NCBI GenBank assembly: GCA_028096805.1
Contig: JAOHDU010000004.1
Location: 1-55,735 of the forward strand
DNA from: Pontimonas sp.
GTDB lineage: Bacteria; Actinomycetota; Actinomycetes; Actinomycetales; Microbacteriaceae
Direction: 5' to 3'
DNA: 55,735 nt
Of the stretch, positions 15,518 to 31,209 are shown one piece after another (position 1 is the stretch's first letter; every line of letters begins with the position of its first letter). The position numbers and the translations under genes are program-made. The notes beneath the pieces are model-generated. The model searched no databases and was not told the origin of the DNA. It saw only the letters and a program-made list of their open reading frames with translations.

Positions 15518-15561
15518 ATCGTGCCTTTCCTTTGAGGGGATGGGGCACGGGCTGAGATGTC

Positions 15562-15645
15562 CTCCCTTCGCTGGCATGACCCAGATCAGGTTCGACGGTC
15601 GAAACCTTGCGGTTTCCTCTCAGTCCACTAACGGACTCCCGTGTT
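15562..15645 (-). promoter_or_regulatory. TPP (THI-element) riboswitch
   Basis: Minus-strand GGACTGAGAGG...CGAACCTGATCTGGGTCATGCCAGCGAAGGGA matches the THI-box consensus (CTGAGA and ACCTGATCTGGGTAATGCCAGCGAAGGGA). Confidence 0.95.
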
Positions 15646-15655
15646 CGCCCTCAGT

Positions 15656-17480: not shown

Positions 17481-17657
17481 ATTGCCTCCTTTTAGAAAGT
17501 TGCCCCACTGTACCCGCGCTGAACTCTTGGTAACTGAGTGGTAACGGCACTAGGTTTGCCGCTCCAGTACCGCTACGCTGAAGATGTCGTTTGTTAGACG
17601 GATTTCCCTACTGGGTCTTTGGATGCAGTGCACCTCGTGAGGGGCAGGGTTCCCTGA

Positions 17658-17689
17658 AGTTTCGACCGTTGGTTTCGAGCGTCGAAACT
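17658..17689 (+). promoter_or_regulatory. Competing hairpins in the cold-shock mRNA leader
   Basis: AGTTTCGAC(17658-17666)/GTCGAAACT(17681-17689) 9-bp stem; alternative GTTTCGA(17672-17678)/TCGAAAC(17682-17688) 7-bp stem with 3-nt loop. Confidence 0.55.
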
Positions 17690-17722
17690 GCGCACCACAG
17701 CACCAAAGAAAAGAGACACAGA

Positions 17723-17926
17723 ATGACAACCGGAATCGTTAAATGGTTCAACGGTGACAAAGGCTACGGCTTCATCACTCCTGATGATGGCTCGGCCGAC
17801 GTTTTCGCACACTTCTCGGCAATCCAGTCCAGCGGCTACCGCTCACTGGAAGAAAACCAGAAGGTCGAATTCGATGTAACCGAGGGTCAAAAAGGCCCTC
17901 AGGCGGAGAACATCCGCCCCCTCTAG
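17723..17926 (+). CDS. Cold-shock domain protein
   Basis: [67 protein letters not shown], 67 aa. Confidence 0.97.
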
Positions 17927-17945
17927 TCTTCCTGCAAGACGCACC

Positions 17946-17977
17946 AGAGCGGGTCTGCCTTCGGGCAGGCCCGCTCT
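17946..17977 (+). terminator. Stem-loop terminator of the cold-shock gene
   Basis: AGAGCGGGTCTGCC TTCG GGCAGGCCCGCTCT, 14-bp stem with one G-U and TTCG tetraloop. Confidence 0.8.
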
Positions 17978-18006
17978 GTCGTTAACACCCGTCCTAGACT
18001 GGAGTG

Positions 18007-25070: not shown

Positions 25071-25673
25071 CTAAATGGCGAGGTCTTGGGGAAGACCCGT
25101 GCGCAGGTTCCGCGGAAGGTGACCCACGTCGTTATGCGTAATCAACACCGGGGGTTTCGCCGTTCGCACTCGGATGATGGTGAGCCCAGCATTCGCTTGG
25201 TTGAGTCCGATCCAGCGCCAAGCTTCCGCGCCGAGGGCTTCGCGAACAAACCAGGCGATCACAAAGTTGTGGGTGATCAGCAGTTCGTGTCGATCCTCAC
25301 TGGAGCGGGCAAACCACTCGGCAATGGCATCCGACATTTGTGCCTCACCGGCGGCAAGCTCTTCGGGGCTGAACCCGCCAAAGAACCCTTCAAAGGCGGC
25401 AGGCATTTCCGGGGTCACGCCGCCTGGCACACAGTCCATCAACAGCGCGCTTTGTGTCGCGGCTTCGCGGCCCAACTCCGTGGTGATGACCTCCGCGGTC
25501 TCCACCGCGCGTTGCAGAGGTGAGGTGTAGGCGGCATCGAAAGGAACATCGCGCAGGCGCCTGGCCACCAGTTGGGCTTGCTGGAGCCCCTTGTCACTGA
25601 GCGGTCCCTCGGGAAGGCCAAACTCCGCGTCCACTTGTTCACCGTGGCGGACCAGATACAGGTACCGAGACAT
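25071..25673 (-). CDS. Histidine phosphatase family protein
   Basis: YLVRHGEQVDAEFGLPEGPLSDKGLQQAQLVA...AYTSPLQRAVETA. Confidence 0.92.
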   Translation of the reverse strand: MSRYLYLVRHGEQVDAEFGLPEGPLSDKGLQQAQLVARRLRDVPFDAAYTSPLQRAVETAEVITTELGREAATQSALLMDCVPGGVTPEMPAAFEGFFGGFSPEELAAGEAQMSDAIAEWFARSSEDRHELLITHNFVIAWFVREALGAEAWRWIGLNQANAGLTIIRVRTAKPPVLITHNDVGHLPRNLRTGLPQDLAI

Positions 25674-25692: not shown

Positions 25693-27057
25693 TTAGCGCC
25701 CGGAGGCCACGCGGGATTCGTGGGCGAGGCCCTCGGCCATTCCCTCCGGCACCGCGCCTACAACGACCGCAGAGAGCGGCTCGTTCGCTAAGTCTTCGGC
25801 CATGGATTGCACTGCTTCGCGGGTCACCTCAGAAAGCCTGGCAAGCCCCTCATCTCGGTCTACAAACTCTCCCGTGTTTAACTCGGCACGACCCAGACGG
25901 ATCATGCGCGCATCACTGTTTTCGAGAGCCAGCGCAGAGCCTCCGGCAACGCTCCCAATCGTTCGGGTGAGCTCGTCTGCGGTAATGCCGGAATCAGCCA
26001 TTCGCCACAGCTCATCCTTCATCACTGTGGCGACTTCGTGGGCACTGCCCGGCGACGTTCCCCCAGCCATTCCAAACACACCCGCGTCGGCGTAACTCGC
26101 GCCGTAGGAATACACCGAGTAGGCGAGCCCCCGCTTCTCGCGAACCTCCTGGAAAAGCCGGGAAGACATGCCGCCACCGAGAACCTGAGACATCACCGCG
26201 AAGGCGTGGCGTCTCTCATCGCTGGCTCGAAGGCCCGGGGTCGCGAGCGCAACGACCGCCTGCTCCAGCGGCCGGGTCACCGTAAGCCCTCGCGCTGCGA
26301 ACTCCAGGGCGGCGGGTGCGCTGGATCGCCGTGGTGCCGGATCGGACCCCGCGGACATATCCCACCCAGAGGCTTCAAGAGCGCTGATCACGCGAGCGAC
26401 GACAACCTCATGAGAGAGTCCCCCCGCAGCCGTGACGACAAGCTCTGATGGGGTGTAGTAGCGCTGATAGTGGGCCATCACTGAATCCCGGGTGGCCGCT
26501 TTGATGGTCTCGGGGTTACCCCCAATGGGTCGCCCTAGGACGTGCGAGCCAAGAACGGTTTCCATCACGCGCTCGTGGGCAACATCGCTGGGGTCGTCAT
26601 CGGCCATCGCCAACTCTTCCAGAATGACGGTGCGCTCGACATCAAACTCGTGCGGGTCAAGGACAGAGTCCGCCACCATATCGGCGAGCACATCGATGGC
26701 CATACCGAGGTCGTGGTCCTGCACCTTTGCGTAATAGCAGGTGTGTTCTTTCGCCGTCATGGCGTTGTGTTCGCCCCCGACTTCGTCAAAAGCCACGGCG
26801 ATATCCAGCGCGCTGCGCGTGGTGGTGCCCTTGAACAACAGGTGCTCGAGAAAGTGCGTGGAGCCGTAGGCAACCGTGTCTTCATCTCGCGACCCGACGG
26901 CGATCCAGAAACCCACGGAGGCAGACAGCGCTCCGGGGACTTCTTCAGTAAGGATTCGCACCCCGCTCGGGTGAACGGTACGGGAGACAATCGCGTCCCC
27001 ACTGGCGGTGAAGGAGAGTTCCGGAGTGGTCAGATCAAAATCGACAGCGGGTGACAT
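25693..27057 (-). CDS. M16-family zinc metalloprotease (PepR-like)
   Basis: HxxEH motif in STHFLEHLLFKGT; located just beyond pnp. Confidence 0.93.
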   Translation of the reverse strand: MSPAVDFDLTTPELSFTASGDAIVSRTVHPSGVRILTEEVPGALSASVGFWIAVGSRDEDTVAYGSTHFLEHLLFKGTTTRSALDIAVAFDEVGGEHNAMTAKEHTCYYAKVQDHDLGMAIDVLADMVADSVLDPHEFDVERTVILEELAMADDDPSDVAHERVMETVLGSHVLGRPIGGNPETIKAATRDSVMAHYQRYYTPSELVVTAAGGLSHEVVVARVISALEASGWDMSAGSDPAPRRSSAPAALEFAARGLTVTRPLEQAVVALATPGLRASDERRHAFAVMSQVLGGGMSSRLFQEVREKRGLAYSVYSYGASYADAGVFGMAGGTSPGSAHEVATVMKDELWRMADSGITADELTRTIGSVAGGSALALENSDARMIRLGRAELNTGEFVDRDEGLARLSEVTREAVQSMAEDLANEPLSAVVVGAVPEGMAEGLAHESRVASGR

Positions 27058-27096
27058 GGCGCCCTTACACTAGCGCTTTTGACTGTGCGCTAAAGG

Positions 27097-27129
27097 CAGA
27101 AGGCCCGGAGCAATGCTCCGGGCCTTCTG
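27097..27129 (-). terminator. Stem-loop downstream of the rhodopsin gene
   Basis: CAGAAGGCCCGGAGCATTGCTCCGGGCCTTCTG near-perfect inverted repeat immediately past the rhodopsin stop. Confidence 0.8.
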
Positions 27130-27146
27130 GGTTTGGTAGGGAAGGA

Positions 27147-27857
27147 CTAGGCCTTCTTTGCTGCCGAAACAGCGACCATACCGAAACCAACCTTGTTGAG
27201 CACGTCAGCAATGACGTACACAATTGCGGCAATCGCAACAGCGTTGCTCACGTCAGCACCGCTGAGCTTCATGAACTCTTCGGTTGCTGTACCGATTGGG
27301 TAAATGGCCCAACCGAACATAACGAAGCGGCGCATGATGCGGACAGCGTTTGCTGCGTAATCTGGCATGCCGTCGAGCTTGACCTGGAACACCGCGTACA
27401 CGATGTAGACCCATGCGAGGCTCGAGATGATGAACCAGATCCAGGTGGACAGTTCACCCTCGGTTCCGACCTCACCAAGGTAACCGGTGACGATCATGAT
27501 GATGTCAGCGATAACAATGCGGGTCACGAAGCCCTTGCTGGCTGCGCCGGCAATAGCAACGATCAAACCGAACTCCACCAAAAGCAGTGGGGTGGTCAAC
27601 AGCCAGTCAATGTAACGGAAGGGCATCGTTGCGCCGATTTCCGCACCAGAGGCCATGGACCGGTCGAAGAAACCGACGATGTCGGTCATGACCCAGTACA
27701 TGATGGCTGCGATGAAGGTAATGATTCCCGCGTAGGTTGCGGCAATCCGGTGCTCGGGCTTCAGGTCGCCTCGTTCGAGAACGAAGTAGACCGTACCTGC
27801 CGCCATTGCGACAAATCCGAGCATAAAGAACGCCTGCGTGATCACAAGCAGATCCAT
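27147..27857 (-). CDS. Microbial rhodopsin, proteorhodopsin-like light-driven proton pump
   Basis: Helix C RYIDWLLTTPLLLVEF gives the D/T/E triad; Leu at the PR position-105 equivalent (green type); helix G YVIADVLNKVGFG with retinal-binding Lys; FGWAIYPIG helix F. Start set at MDLLVITQ with upstream AAAGGGAG. Confidence 0.95.
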   Translation of the reverse strand: MDLLVITQAFFMLGFVAMAAGTVYFVLERGDLKPEHRIAATYAGIITFIAAIMYWVMTDIVGFFDRSMASGAEIGATMPFRYIDWLLTTPLLLVEFGLIVAIAGAASKGFVTRIVIADIIMIVTGYLGEVGTEGELSTWIWFIISSLAWVYIVYAVFQVKLDGMPDYAANAVRIMRRFVMFGWAIYPIGTATEEFMKLSGADVSNAVAIAAIVYVIADVLNKVGFGMVAVSAAKKA

Positions 27858-28042
27858 GATTCTCCCTTTCATGATTCTTAACACCGCCCGTCGGCGCGAC
27901 GGACCCGTCGGCGGGTGGTCGAGGAATTGTCCTCTATGCAGTGAGTATCAAGGATGCTCACCAGCCCCAACACGCTACCCCTGGGCGCACTTTTTTGCTA
28001 CATAAACACCCTATTTTGGCTGAAATTTTCCTGAATGCCCGG

Positions 28043-28070
28043 TAAATAGAGGGCAGAAAAAGTACCTCAA
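28043..28070 (-). promoter_or_regulatory. Candidate rhodopsin promoter (TTGAGG-N16-TATTTA)
   Basis: Minus-strand ttgaggtactttttctgccctctattta in the AT-richer upstream region. Confidence 0.35.
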
Positions 28071-28164
28071 TCCTGTTTTCATCCATGGTAAATCAGCAAA
28101 AATTACCCGAATGGCCTCTTTTTGGCCGGGCGGAAAGCGTCGTGGCGTGGTTGAAGGTTAACGC

Positions 28165-28200
28165 ACGAAGACCCGACCTCCTGAGGGGCCGGGTCTTCGT
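28165..28200 (-). terminator. Stem-loop downstream of pnp
   Basis: ACGAAGACCCGGCCCCTCAGGAGGTCGGGTCTTCGT, ~14-bp stem with one mismatch. Confidence 0.8.
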
Positions 28201-28208
28201 GGCATTTA

Positions 28209-30443
28209 TTACTCGGCTGCGGCTTCGCCGTCCTCTGCCACCACGGGGCTGAGGGAGAGCTTGCCACGGTCATCAATCTTGGAGATTTCCACCAGGACTT
28301 TCTGACCCACCGACAGAACGTCTTCGACATCGTCGACTCGTTTGCCGCCGGCCAGCTTGCGCACCTCAGAGATGTGCAGCAGGCCGTCCTTGCCGGGAAC
28401 CAGAGAGATGAAGGCACCGAAGGCAGCGATCTTGACGACCGTTCCCAGGTACTGCTCCCCCACCTCGGGGTTCACGGGGTTGGCAATCGCATTGACGCGG
28501 GTGCGCGCTGCTTCAGCGCTCTCCCCGTCAACGGCACCAATGAAGACTGTGCCGTCATCGTCAATCGAGATTTGAGCGCCGGTCTCATCCTGAATCGAGT
28601 TGATGGTTTTACCCTTAGGCCCAATCAGCTCACCGATCTTGTCGGCAGGAATGTTCACGGTGATCACGCGAGGTGCGGTCGCAGCCATCTCATCCGGGGA
28701 ATCGATTGCTTCGTTCATGACCGCGAGGATGTGCAGTCGCGCATCCTTAGCCTGCGTCAATGCGCCCGCCAAGACGCTCGCTGGAATTCCATCGAGCTTC
28801 GTGTCGAGCTGAATCGCGGTGACGAATTCGGTGGTCCCTGCCACCTTGAAGTCCATGTCACCCAGGGCATCTTCCGCACCGAGGATGTCGGTCAGAGCTG
28901 CGTAGCGCATCTCCCCGTCAACCTCATCGGAAATCAGACCCATGGCAATACCCGCAACCGGAGCCTTCAGCGGAACACCGGCGTTGAGCATCGACAACGT
29001 CGAGGCACACACCGAACCCATGGAGGTCGAACCGTTCGAGCTCAATGCTTCCGACACCTGACGGATGGCGTAAGGGAACTCTTCACGAGAAGGCAACACC
29101 GGCACCAAAGCACGCTCCGCAAGGAAGCCGTGACCAATTTCACGACGCTTAGGGGTACCCACACGACCCGTTTCACCGGTCGAATAGGGCGGGAAGTTGT
29201 AGTGGTGCATGTAGCGCTTGCTCGTCACAGGGTTCAACGAGTCAATCTGCTGCTCCATCTTCAACATGTTCAGTGTCGTGACACCCATGATCTGGGTCTC
29301 ACCGCGCTGGAACAGTGCGGAACCGTGAACCCGAGGAATGATGTCCACCTCAGCATCAATGACGCGCAGGTCAGACCCACCGCGACCATCGATTCGGATG
29401 CCCTCAGCGAGAACGCGGGTGCGCATGACGCGCTTGGTCACCGACTTGTAGGCGGCGGACACCATGGCGTTGGAGCCTTCGGGAAGGGTGCCTGCCTCAA
29501 CCTGCGCGGCAACGGCATCTTTCACAGCGGACTTCAGCTCATCGTCTGCAGCCTGGCGTTCCTTCTTGTCAGCGATCTGGTAGACGCTCGCCAGTTTGGT
29601 GGCTGCCTCAGCGTCGACCGCTGCCAATACCTCGGGGGTGTAGTCAGCGAAGACCGGGTAGTTTTCGATTTCCTTAGCGGACTGGTCAGCGAGCTTCTGC
29701 TGCGCCTCGACCAGCTGCTTGAGGAAAGGCTTGGCCGCTTCGAGACCCTGCGCAACAACTTCTTCGCTGGGCTTCGTAGCGCCGCCCTGGATGAGCTCCC
29801 AGCTCACCTCGGTGGCTTCTGCTTCCACCATCATGATGGCGACATCTTCCGAGCCATCGGGCATGGTGACCACGCGGCCTGCCACAACGATGTCGAAGAC
29901 TGCTTCCGCCAGCTGGCTGTGCTTGGGGAAGGCAACCCACTGGTCACCGATCAGAGCCAAGCGCACCGCAGCGATCGGACCGCTGAAGGGCAGGCCCGAA
30001 ATCTGGGTGGACGCCGAAGCTGCGTTAATCGCGAGGGCGTCATAGAACTCATCGGGTGCCATGGAGAGCACGGTGATGACAATCTGCACCTCGTTGCGAA
30101 GTCCATCAACGAACGATGGACGCAACGGCCGGTCAATCAAACGGCACACCAGGATGGCGTCTGTGGAGGGGCGACCCTCACGGCGGAAGAACGAGCCGGG
30201 AATCTTGCCCGCAGCATACGAGCGCTCTTCCACGTCAACGGTCAACGGGAAGAAGTCAAAGCCTTCCCGGGCATTCTTTGAGGCACTGGTTGCCGAGAGC
30301 AACATGGTGTCCTCATCCAGGTATGCGGCAACCGCTCCCTGGGCTTGCTGGGCCAAACGACCCGTTTCAAAGCGCACAGTGCGCTTACCGAAAGCACCGT
30401 TATCGAGAACGGTTTCGGCGAATTTAATTTCTGGACCTTCCAT
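28209..30443 (-). CDS. pnp: Polyribonucleotide nucleotidyltransferase
   Basis: KH domain ([34 protein letters not shown]), S1 domain, RNase PH domains. Confidence 0.98.
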
Positions 30444-30693: not shown

Positions 30694-30730
30694 CTAAAAA
30701 GCGATACCCCCGCGCCGGGCGGGGGTATCG
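30694..30730 (-). terminator. Rho-independent terminator of rpsO
   Basis: Minus-strand CGATACCCCCGCCCGGCGCGGGGGTATCG followed by CTTTTTAGG. Confidence 0.9.
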
Positions 30731-30743
30731 GATGTTTGGGGCT

Positions 30744-31013
30744 TTATCGGCGCAGACCGAGTTTTTCGATCAGCGCACGGTAGCGGGCGATGTCAATGCG
30801 CTGCAGGTAACCCAACAGGCGACGACGGCGACCGACCATCAGGAGCAACCCGCGACGCGAGTGGTGGTCGTGTTTGTGACCCTTGAGGTGCTCGGTGAGC
30901 TCCACAATGCGGTGGGTCATCAGCGCAATCTGGACTTCGGGAGAACCGGTGTCACCGGGGTGGGTCGCATACTTCTCGATGATTGTTGCTTTTTCTGCTT
31001 GGGCCATAGCCAT
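30744..31013 (-). CDS. rpsO: 30S ribosomal protein S15
   Basis: [53 protein letters not shown]. Confidence 0.98.
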
Positions 31014-31209
31014 GTCAGCTCTCCTTCGTCTCGCTGCGCGGCGCCACACCAGGATGGTGAAGCTCTCTCAATCCGCGGCCGTTTCACGGCACAAGGAGCA
31101 ACACTAGCACCGAGAAGGCCTCGCGAACAGACCCAGGACCGTTACCAAGGTGTGATGCCCGGGCCTTGTTGGCCCAGCACAGCTTTGGCACACTGATAGA
31201 CAGCTACTC

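Follow-up and report, generated by a model that had tools for sequence, protein, structure and literature searches.

The Pontimonas rhodopsin gene as a probable single ancestral insertion between pnp and an M16 peptidase gene, with a candidate structured leader

Introduction

Rhodopsin in the genus Pontimonas is known from Pontimonas salivibrio, whose protein is assigned to the Exiguobacterium subcluster in the accessible text of PMC6106888; the same text describes the gene as ancestral, with synteny in Yonghaparkia and acMicro-4 ("data not shown"). The accessible part of PMC7979833 enters the P. salivibrio rhodopsin WP_104913209.1 as PR/DTE, with an absorption measured at 538 nm. Another member of the Microbacteriaceae, Aurantimicrobium minutum, whose genome has crtYe/Yf and crtEb, produces retinal by an as yet unidentified route although it lacks both blh and diox1 (PMC7734400), and Luna-1 relatives are thought to rely on exogenous retinal (PMC12422013).

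Here we analysed a rhodopsin locus in a 55,735-nucleotide stretch of DNA, hereafter the window, which is contig C34 of a 74% complete, 0.99-Mb genome of the small aquatic actinobacterium Pontimonas. An initial annotation had described the rhodopsin gene as an independently transcribed cassette inserted into an rpsO-pnp-M16 peptidase block. Gene order was compared at 54 rhodopsin loci and about 30 pnp loci. Comparison establishes gene order, homology, purifying selection, conservation of leader and promoter-like elements, and retention of hairpins despite sequence change; on these grounds, we consider it likely that the gene encodes an ESR-like pump and is a stand-alone unit with its own promoter, terminator and structured leader, derived from a single ancestral insertion and vertically inherited.

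Results

Gene order at the locus

On the minus strand, the window carries rpsO, pnp, the rhodopsin gene, an M16 peptidase gene, a histidine phosphatase gene and an NAD-dependent DNA ligase gene, the last named from its sequence. Open reading frame positions and profile matches bear out the order rpsO-pnp-rhodopsin-M16, with the coordinates and strand that the initial annotation had given.

30744..31049, minus strand: rpsO, 30S ribosomal protein S15 (TIGR00952, 128.8 bits, above the cut-off)
30702..30730, minus strand: terminator-like hairpin after rpsO (12-bp stem followed by CTTTTTA; z -4.4)
28209..30443, minus strand: pnp, polyribonucleotide nucleotidyltransferase / pppGpp synthetase I (TIGR02696, 1339 bits)
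27147..27857, minus strand: ESR-like rhodopsin of 236 residues (PF01036, 146.6 bits; D84/T88/E95, retinal lysine K222)
25693..27057, minus strand: M16 family peptidase (PF00675, 124 bits; PF05193, 119 bits)
25071..25673, minus strand: histidine phosphatase family protein, the next gene of the conserved block (PF00300, 94 bits)

The histidine phosphatase gene follows the M16 gene in most relatives, and a genome-wide search of the 74% complete assembly found this rhodopsin gene as its single one. The window also holds a sub-threshold match to the Actino-pnp RNA upstream of pnp (RF01688, 30556-30612, minus strand, 33.5 versus 47.7 bits), and two matches that barely exceed their gathering scores, a cspA thermoregulator RNA (17597-17978, plus strand, 82.3 versus 78 bits) and a TPP riboswitch (15546-15652, minus strand, 55.0 versus 54.3 bits).

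Class and predicted function of the rhodopsin

The protein contains the type-1 microbial rhodopsin domain (Bac_rhodopsin), its PF01036 score lying far above the curated cut-off of 24.6 bits. Its closest solved relative by sequence is the Exiguobacterium sibiricum rhodopsin (ESR; PDB 4hyj, 171 bits), by a wide margin over other PDB matches. The acceptor aspartate D84, T88, the carboxylic donor E95 and the helix-7 retinal lysine K222 are unchanged in 20 relatives, giving the DTE pattern. A tree of 105 rhodopsins unites the ESR-like proteins of the Microbacteriaceae in a single clade (100/99) and sets them apart from the family's own actinorhodopsins (100/100); the deepest branches, including the join with ESR-type Bacillaceae, lack resolution. 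Identity as an actinorhodopsin was ruled out by this placement in a different clade and by an amino acid identity of 29-30%. Pairwise dN/dS values between the window's rhodopsin gene and those of Pontimonas relatives are 0.08-0.18, showing that the gene is under purifying selection in the genus.

These features point to an ESR-like, DTE, light-driven outward proton pump, the pumping by the window's own protein being predicted from its sequence. A role as a light sensor instead of a pump would draw on work, cited in the accessible text of PMC6106888, in which the Exiguobacterium protein is taken for a sensor that pumps poorly. However, the window's protein has the DTE motif with the carboxylic donor E95, no transducer-like gene occurs among the conserved neighbours, and the same text, which favours photoheterotrophy, reports that a homologous transduction system was not found in P. 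salivibrio. We therefore regard a sensor as quite improbable and take the protein to be a putative pump.

The pnp-M16 slot in relatives

Rhodopsin genes are present in 17 of the 19 Pontimonas genomes, and all 17 have the gene beside pnp and/or M16; wherever the contigs reach far enough, the order is pnp-rhodopsin-M16. The two genomes without it are 53% and 77% complete and likewise gave no M16 match. At one Pontimonas locus (L137), the pnp match stops 1.1 kb before the rhodopsin gene and M16 lies in two pieces, shifted, perhaps through a frameshift or an assembly error.

In other Microbacteriaceae, the interval between pnp and M16 is usually filled by an aldo/keto reductase (AKR) gene, with, in many cases, a TetR gene after it on the opposite strand and, in some, a PEBP-like gene before it; pnp and M16 are directly adjacent in some genomes (L087, L098, L101 and L212). 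The earlier picture of an insertion between two otherwise adjacent genes is thus not supported, given that most sampled members of the family have AKR, often with TetR, in between. In Pontimonas, pnp and M16 lie about 1.15 kb apart, roughly as far as in several AKR-carrying relatives, and spacing alone is therefore no evidence for insertion. Microcella and Yonghaparkia show pnp, (PEBP), rhodopsin, AKR, TetR and histidine phosphatase in succession; M16 gave no match at this locus, and none genome-wide for two of these genomes. Pontimonas and Microcella are sisters in the pnp tree (SH-aLRT 98), a single-gene proxy for the species tree.

The rhodopsin gene lies at other sites in other ESR-like Microbacteriaceae, and rhodopsin is patchy in the family as a whole (65 of 250 genomes). 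Two genomes of the genus g67 (G131 and G232) have an actinorhodopsin-class gene, 29-30% identical to that of the window, between pnp and M16 (7814-8488 in L084 and 5117-5791 in L085), and a third (G067) has no rhodopsin in the slot. The slot has therefore been used by two different rhodopsins.

Origin of the arrangement

The position common to the sister genus Microcella argues that the event is old and that inheritance within Pontimonas is vertical. We propose that the rhodopsin gene would have been inserted between pnp and M16, upstream of an AKR gene already present there, in the common ancestor of Pontimonas and Microcella, and would then have been passed on vertically in Pontimonas, with AKR and TetR lost there and M16 lost in Microcella. 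What survives of the initial annotation's acquired module is a self-contained unit in a slot that holds no rhodopsin in most of the family, but the acquisition is not recent. A rhodopsin phylogeny that matches the species had been named there as an argument against acquisition, and within the genus Pontimonas such a match is largely what is found.

The rhodopsin tree leaves room for another history, in which an ESR-like rhodopsin arrived twice, once in Pontimonas and once in Microcella, at a permissive site 3' of pnp. The best tree does not join Pontimonas with Microcella, and a distant small-genome group stands weakly next to Pontimonas (81/56); the site can be seen as permissive, lying between terminators and near strongly expressed genes, and the rhodopsin of a different class in g67 indicates that the slot was used at least twice. 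Against two insertions, the subfamily, the strand and the place upstream of AKR/M16/histidine phosphatase are identical in the sister genera, and a tree with a Pontimonas plus Microcella rhodopsin clade, that is, a single origin, is not rejected (AU p 0.45), so that we consider two insertions unlikely. That the window's own lineage recently captured a mobile rhodopsin cassette would suit the patchy distribution in the family and the other sites in other genera. Yet the gene sits at the same site in 17/17 rhodopsin-bearing Pontimonas and, up to AKR, in Microcella, and its dN/dS is low (0.08-0.18); this position, common to the genus and Microcella, rules out a recent insertion in the window's lineage, and we give the mobile-cassette reading next to no credence. 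A search for direct repeats at the ends of the rhodopsin unit found none. The single, old insertion therefore remains our preferred account.

Small-genome actinobacteria with a deep-branching pnp (L154, L161-L177) carry an ESR-like rhodopsin gene mostly after an ABC-type ATPase gene, a conserved site. The weak placement of the small-genome group beside Pontimonas in the rhodopsin tree gives a hint of transfer between the groups.

Promoter and flanking hairpins

The rhodopsin gene is bracketed by hairpins and preceded by promoter-like elements, all on the minus strand.

28164..28201, minus strand: hairpin after pnp, at the upstream edge of the rhodopsin unit (15-nt arms, 93% complementary)
27995..28000, minus strand: predicted rhodopsin promoter -35 element, TAGCAA (TAGnnA exactly 17 nt before the -10 element in 10 of 13 aligned Pontimonas loci)
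27972..27977, minus strand: predicted rhodopsin promoter -10 element, TAGCGT (TAGCGT/TAACCT/TAGCCT in 13/13 loci)
27861..27866, minus strand: ribosome binding site GGGAGA, invariant in the alignment
27092..27134, minus strand: hairpin after the rhodopsin gene, a likely terminator (21-nt arms)

The strong stem-loops reported at both ends of the gene proved robust. The region after pnp (28160-28205) folds at -32.4 kcal/mol (z -6.3 versus shuffles) and that after the rhodopsin gene (27090-27136) at -31.8 kcal/mol (z -7.5), and a hairpin of differing sequence occurs at the same place after pnp in 13/13 and after rhodopsin in 15/15 Pontimonas loci. The upstream region was said to be richer in AT; the direction holds, but the difference is modest (51-52% GC versus 56-61% around it). 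Although a simple sigma-70 scan detected no promoter upstream of the rhodopsin gene, the candidate promoter of the initial annotation gains support from TAGCAA-17-TAGCGT, which is conserved across the Pontimonas alignment. The predicted transcription start lies about 7 nt downstream of the -10 element, near 27965.

Promoter-like and terminator-like elements of the gene's own are thus conserved across species and, together with a 5' leader specific to rhodopsin, give comparative backing to the independent transcription suggested earlier. The rhodopsin gene appears to be a self-contained transcription unit: the hairpin after pnp would set it apart from pnp, and transcription would run from its own TAGCAA-17-TAGCGT promoter to its own hairpin, with the start point and the terminator action both predicted.

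A candidate structured leader upstream of the rhodopsin gene

Between the predicted transcription start and the start codon (27858-27965, minus strand) lies a structured leader that is specific to rhodopsin and present in a single copy per Pontimonas genome. The rhodopsin mRNA of Pontimonas would begin with this leader of about 108 nt, comprising three elements, P0, P1 and P2.

27938..27965, minus strand: hairpin P0, at the predicted mRNA 5' end (a few nt after the -10 element in 12 of 13 leaders)
27921..27934, minus strand: hairpin P1, GAGGA-CAAT-TCCTC (5-bp stem, two pairs changed on both sides, A-U/G-C)
27884..27918, minus strand: core P2, CCACCCGCCGACGGGTCCGTCGCGCCGACGGGCGG (35 nt, near-invariant across the genus)

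The sequence of P0 cannot be aligned between lineages, yet all 13 versions fold better than the mean of their own shuffles (mean z -2.0; z -0.9 for the window's alone). The covariation score of P1 was matched by 0/500 shuffles of the model-fitted alignment and by 1/500 of the unfitted one, such shuffles keeping relatedness in. Secondary structure is therefore conserved with compensatory changes, as seen from pair counts in P1 and from hairpin retention in P0. Between species whose rhodopsin genes differ at 43-58% of synonymous sites, the P2 core keeps 75-94% identity, and it can form two mutually exclusive stems; the P2 stem has no two-sided changes, and conservation is too high for P2 to be open to a covariation test. 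The full leader of the window folds moderately better than its shuffles (z -1.8), and the case for the leader therefore rests on comparison.

A covariance model of the leader (R1) gave one strong match per genome in 15 Pontimonas genomes, always before the rhodopsin gene; in two further Pontimonas genomes (G104 and G256), the contig stops just upstream of rhodopsin. Elsewhere in Pontimonas genomes the model gave two weak matches (E 0.7-1), which we treat as chance. The leader was not found in Microcella or at other ESR-like rhodopsin loci, and the core pattern did not occur in viral contigs. Rfam gave no family match in 27858-27977 at E values up to 5; Actino-pnp (RF01688) was rejected as an identity for the leader, matching weakly, below its cut-off and upstream of pnp. 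A literature search of titles and abstracts returned nothing relevant on a rhodopsin leader RNA.

Might the conserved stretch be a protein-binding DNA operator or an extended promoter, and not an RNA element? The 35-nt core is conserved as sequence, and its P2 pairs lack two-sided changes, as such a reading would have it. Conversely, P1 shows two-sided changes with a score that none of the 500 shuffles reached, P0 is kept as a hairpin directly after the -10 element despite its unalignable sequence, and the core, at 54-88 nt downstream of the -10 element, falls within the predicted transcript. A DNA element thus keeps some plausibility, although we lean clearly towards an RNA leader. Such a leader probably sets mRNA stability or translation, any regulatory role being deduced from conservation; protection of the mRNA by the 5'-terminal hairpin and control of translation would be the plain options, and a ligand switch is possible. 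A bolder and rather unlikely version would make the leader a new structured class devoted to one gene, its exclusive P2 pairings switching so as to adjust opsin synthesis to a signal, which could be retinal or carotenoid availability, light or temperature, in a lineage where no known retinal-forming enzyme is seen in most genomes.

Carotenoid and retinal genes

The absence of crt and blh genes from the window, as first noted, is upheld, the sole crtB match of the genome lying on contig C40. There (L232 2489-7139), a C50 cluster comprises idi, crtB, crtI, two lycopene cyclase domain genes (crtYe/Yf-like) and a crtEb-like prenyltransferase gene, and the other Pontimonas carotenoid loci examined have the identical gene set as far as the stretches extend. 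Searches of the window's genome found neither Blh nor RPE65, and its incomplete assembly (74%) could hide a retinal gene.

Among the 19 Pontimonas genomes, Blh is present in three (G030, G253 and G262), whose rhodopsins (L031, L146 and L143) group together in the P. salivibrio sub-clade, and an RPE65-type dioxygenase in none; Blh was not found in five rhodopsin-bearing genomes that are 90-97% complete. Across the family sample, Blh occurs in 27/250 genomes versus 65/250 for rhodopsin. In P. salivibrio (L234 4640-6474), Blh stands opposite a second, distant lycopene cyclase-domain match; the same pair occurs in L239 and L083, so far on the P. salivibrio side of the genus only. Pontimonas could obtain retinal by an A. 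minutum-like route or from exogenous supply.

Discussion

Our findings replace the view of a recently inserted rhodopsin with that of an old site, an inherited arrangement and an already known rhodopsin type. Since the slot is old and two unrelated rhodopsin classes have come to occupy it within one family, rhodopsin gain becomes datable by gene order. The leader offers a concrete handle on the control of a proton pump in a bacterium with a streamlined genome. Most Pontimonas genomes keep the rhodopsin under purifying selection yet show no match to either known family of retinal-forming enzymes, which makes the genus a second lineage of Microbacteriaceae, with A. minutum, to pose the question of the retinal source. 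Relative to the papers and libraries searched, the leader RNA, which may control rhodopsin, is previously undescribed, and the repeated use of the slot is likewise new; the P. salivibrio homologue and its position were already known from the accessible text of PMC6106888. The AKR history, the promoter and the leader RNA are not reported in the accessible text of PMC6106888 or PMC7979833.

Compared with structured 5' leaders and other cis-regulatory RNAs in Rfam, the Pontimonas leader likewise keeps its hairpins through compensatory changes before one gene and ends at the ribosome binding site, but it matches no family. The rhodopsin shares its fold family with ESR (4hyj), which, in the alignment, has a lysine where the window's protein has the donor glutamate E95. 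With the actinorhodopsins of the Microbacteriaceae it has the host family in common and, for the g67 copy, even the pnp-M16 slot, whereas it falls in a separate clade and is about 30% identical. Like the window's genome, that of A. minutum comes from the Microbacteriaceae and combines a rhodopsin and the C50 genes crtYe/Yf and crtEb with no blh/diox1 found; its rhodopsin, termed XLR, is functional, and it is in A. minutum that endogenous retinal was measured (PMC7734400). P. salivibrio differs from the window's genome in that Blh is present there and was not found here. The P. salivibrio CL-TW6 rhodopsin (C3B54_11643 in the accessible text of PMC6106888; WP_104913209.1 in that of PMC7979833) is placed in the ESR subcluster, has the DTE motif in common with the window's protein and is about 80% identical to it, and the P. 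salivibrio locus (L031/L009) has the genus and the pnp-rhodopsin-M16 position in common with the window.
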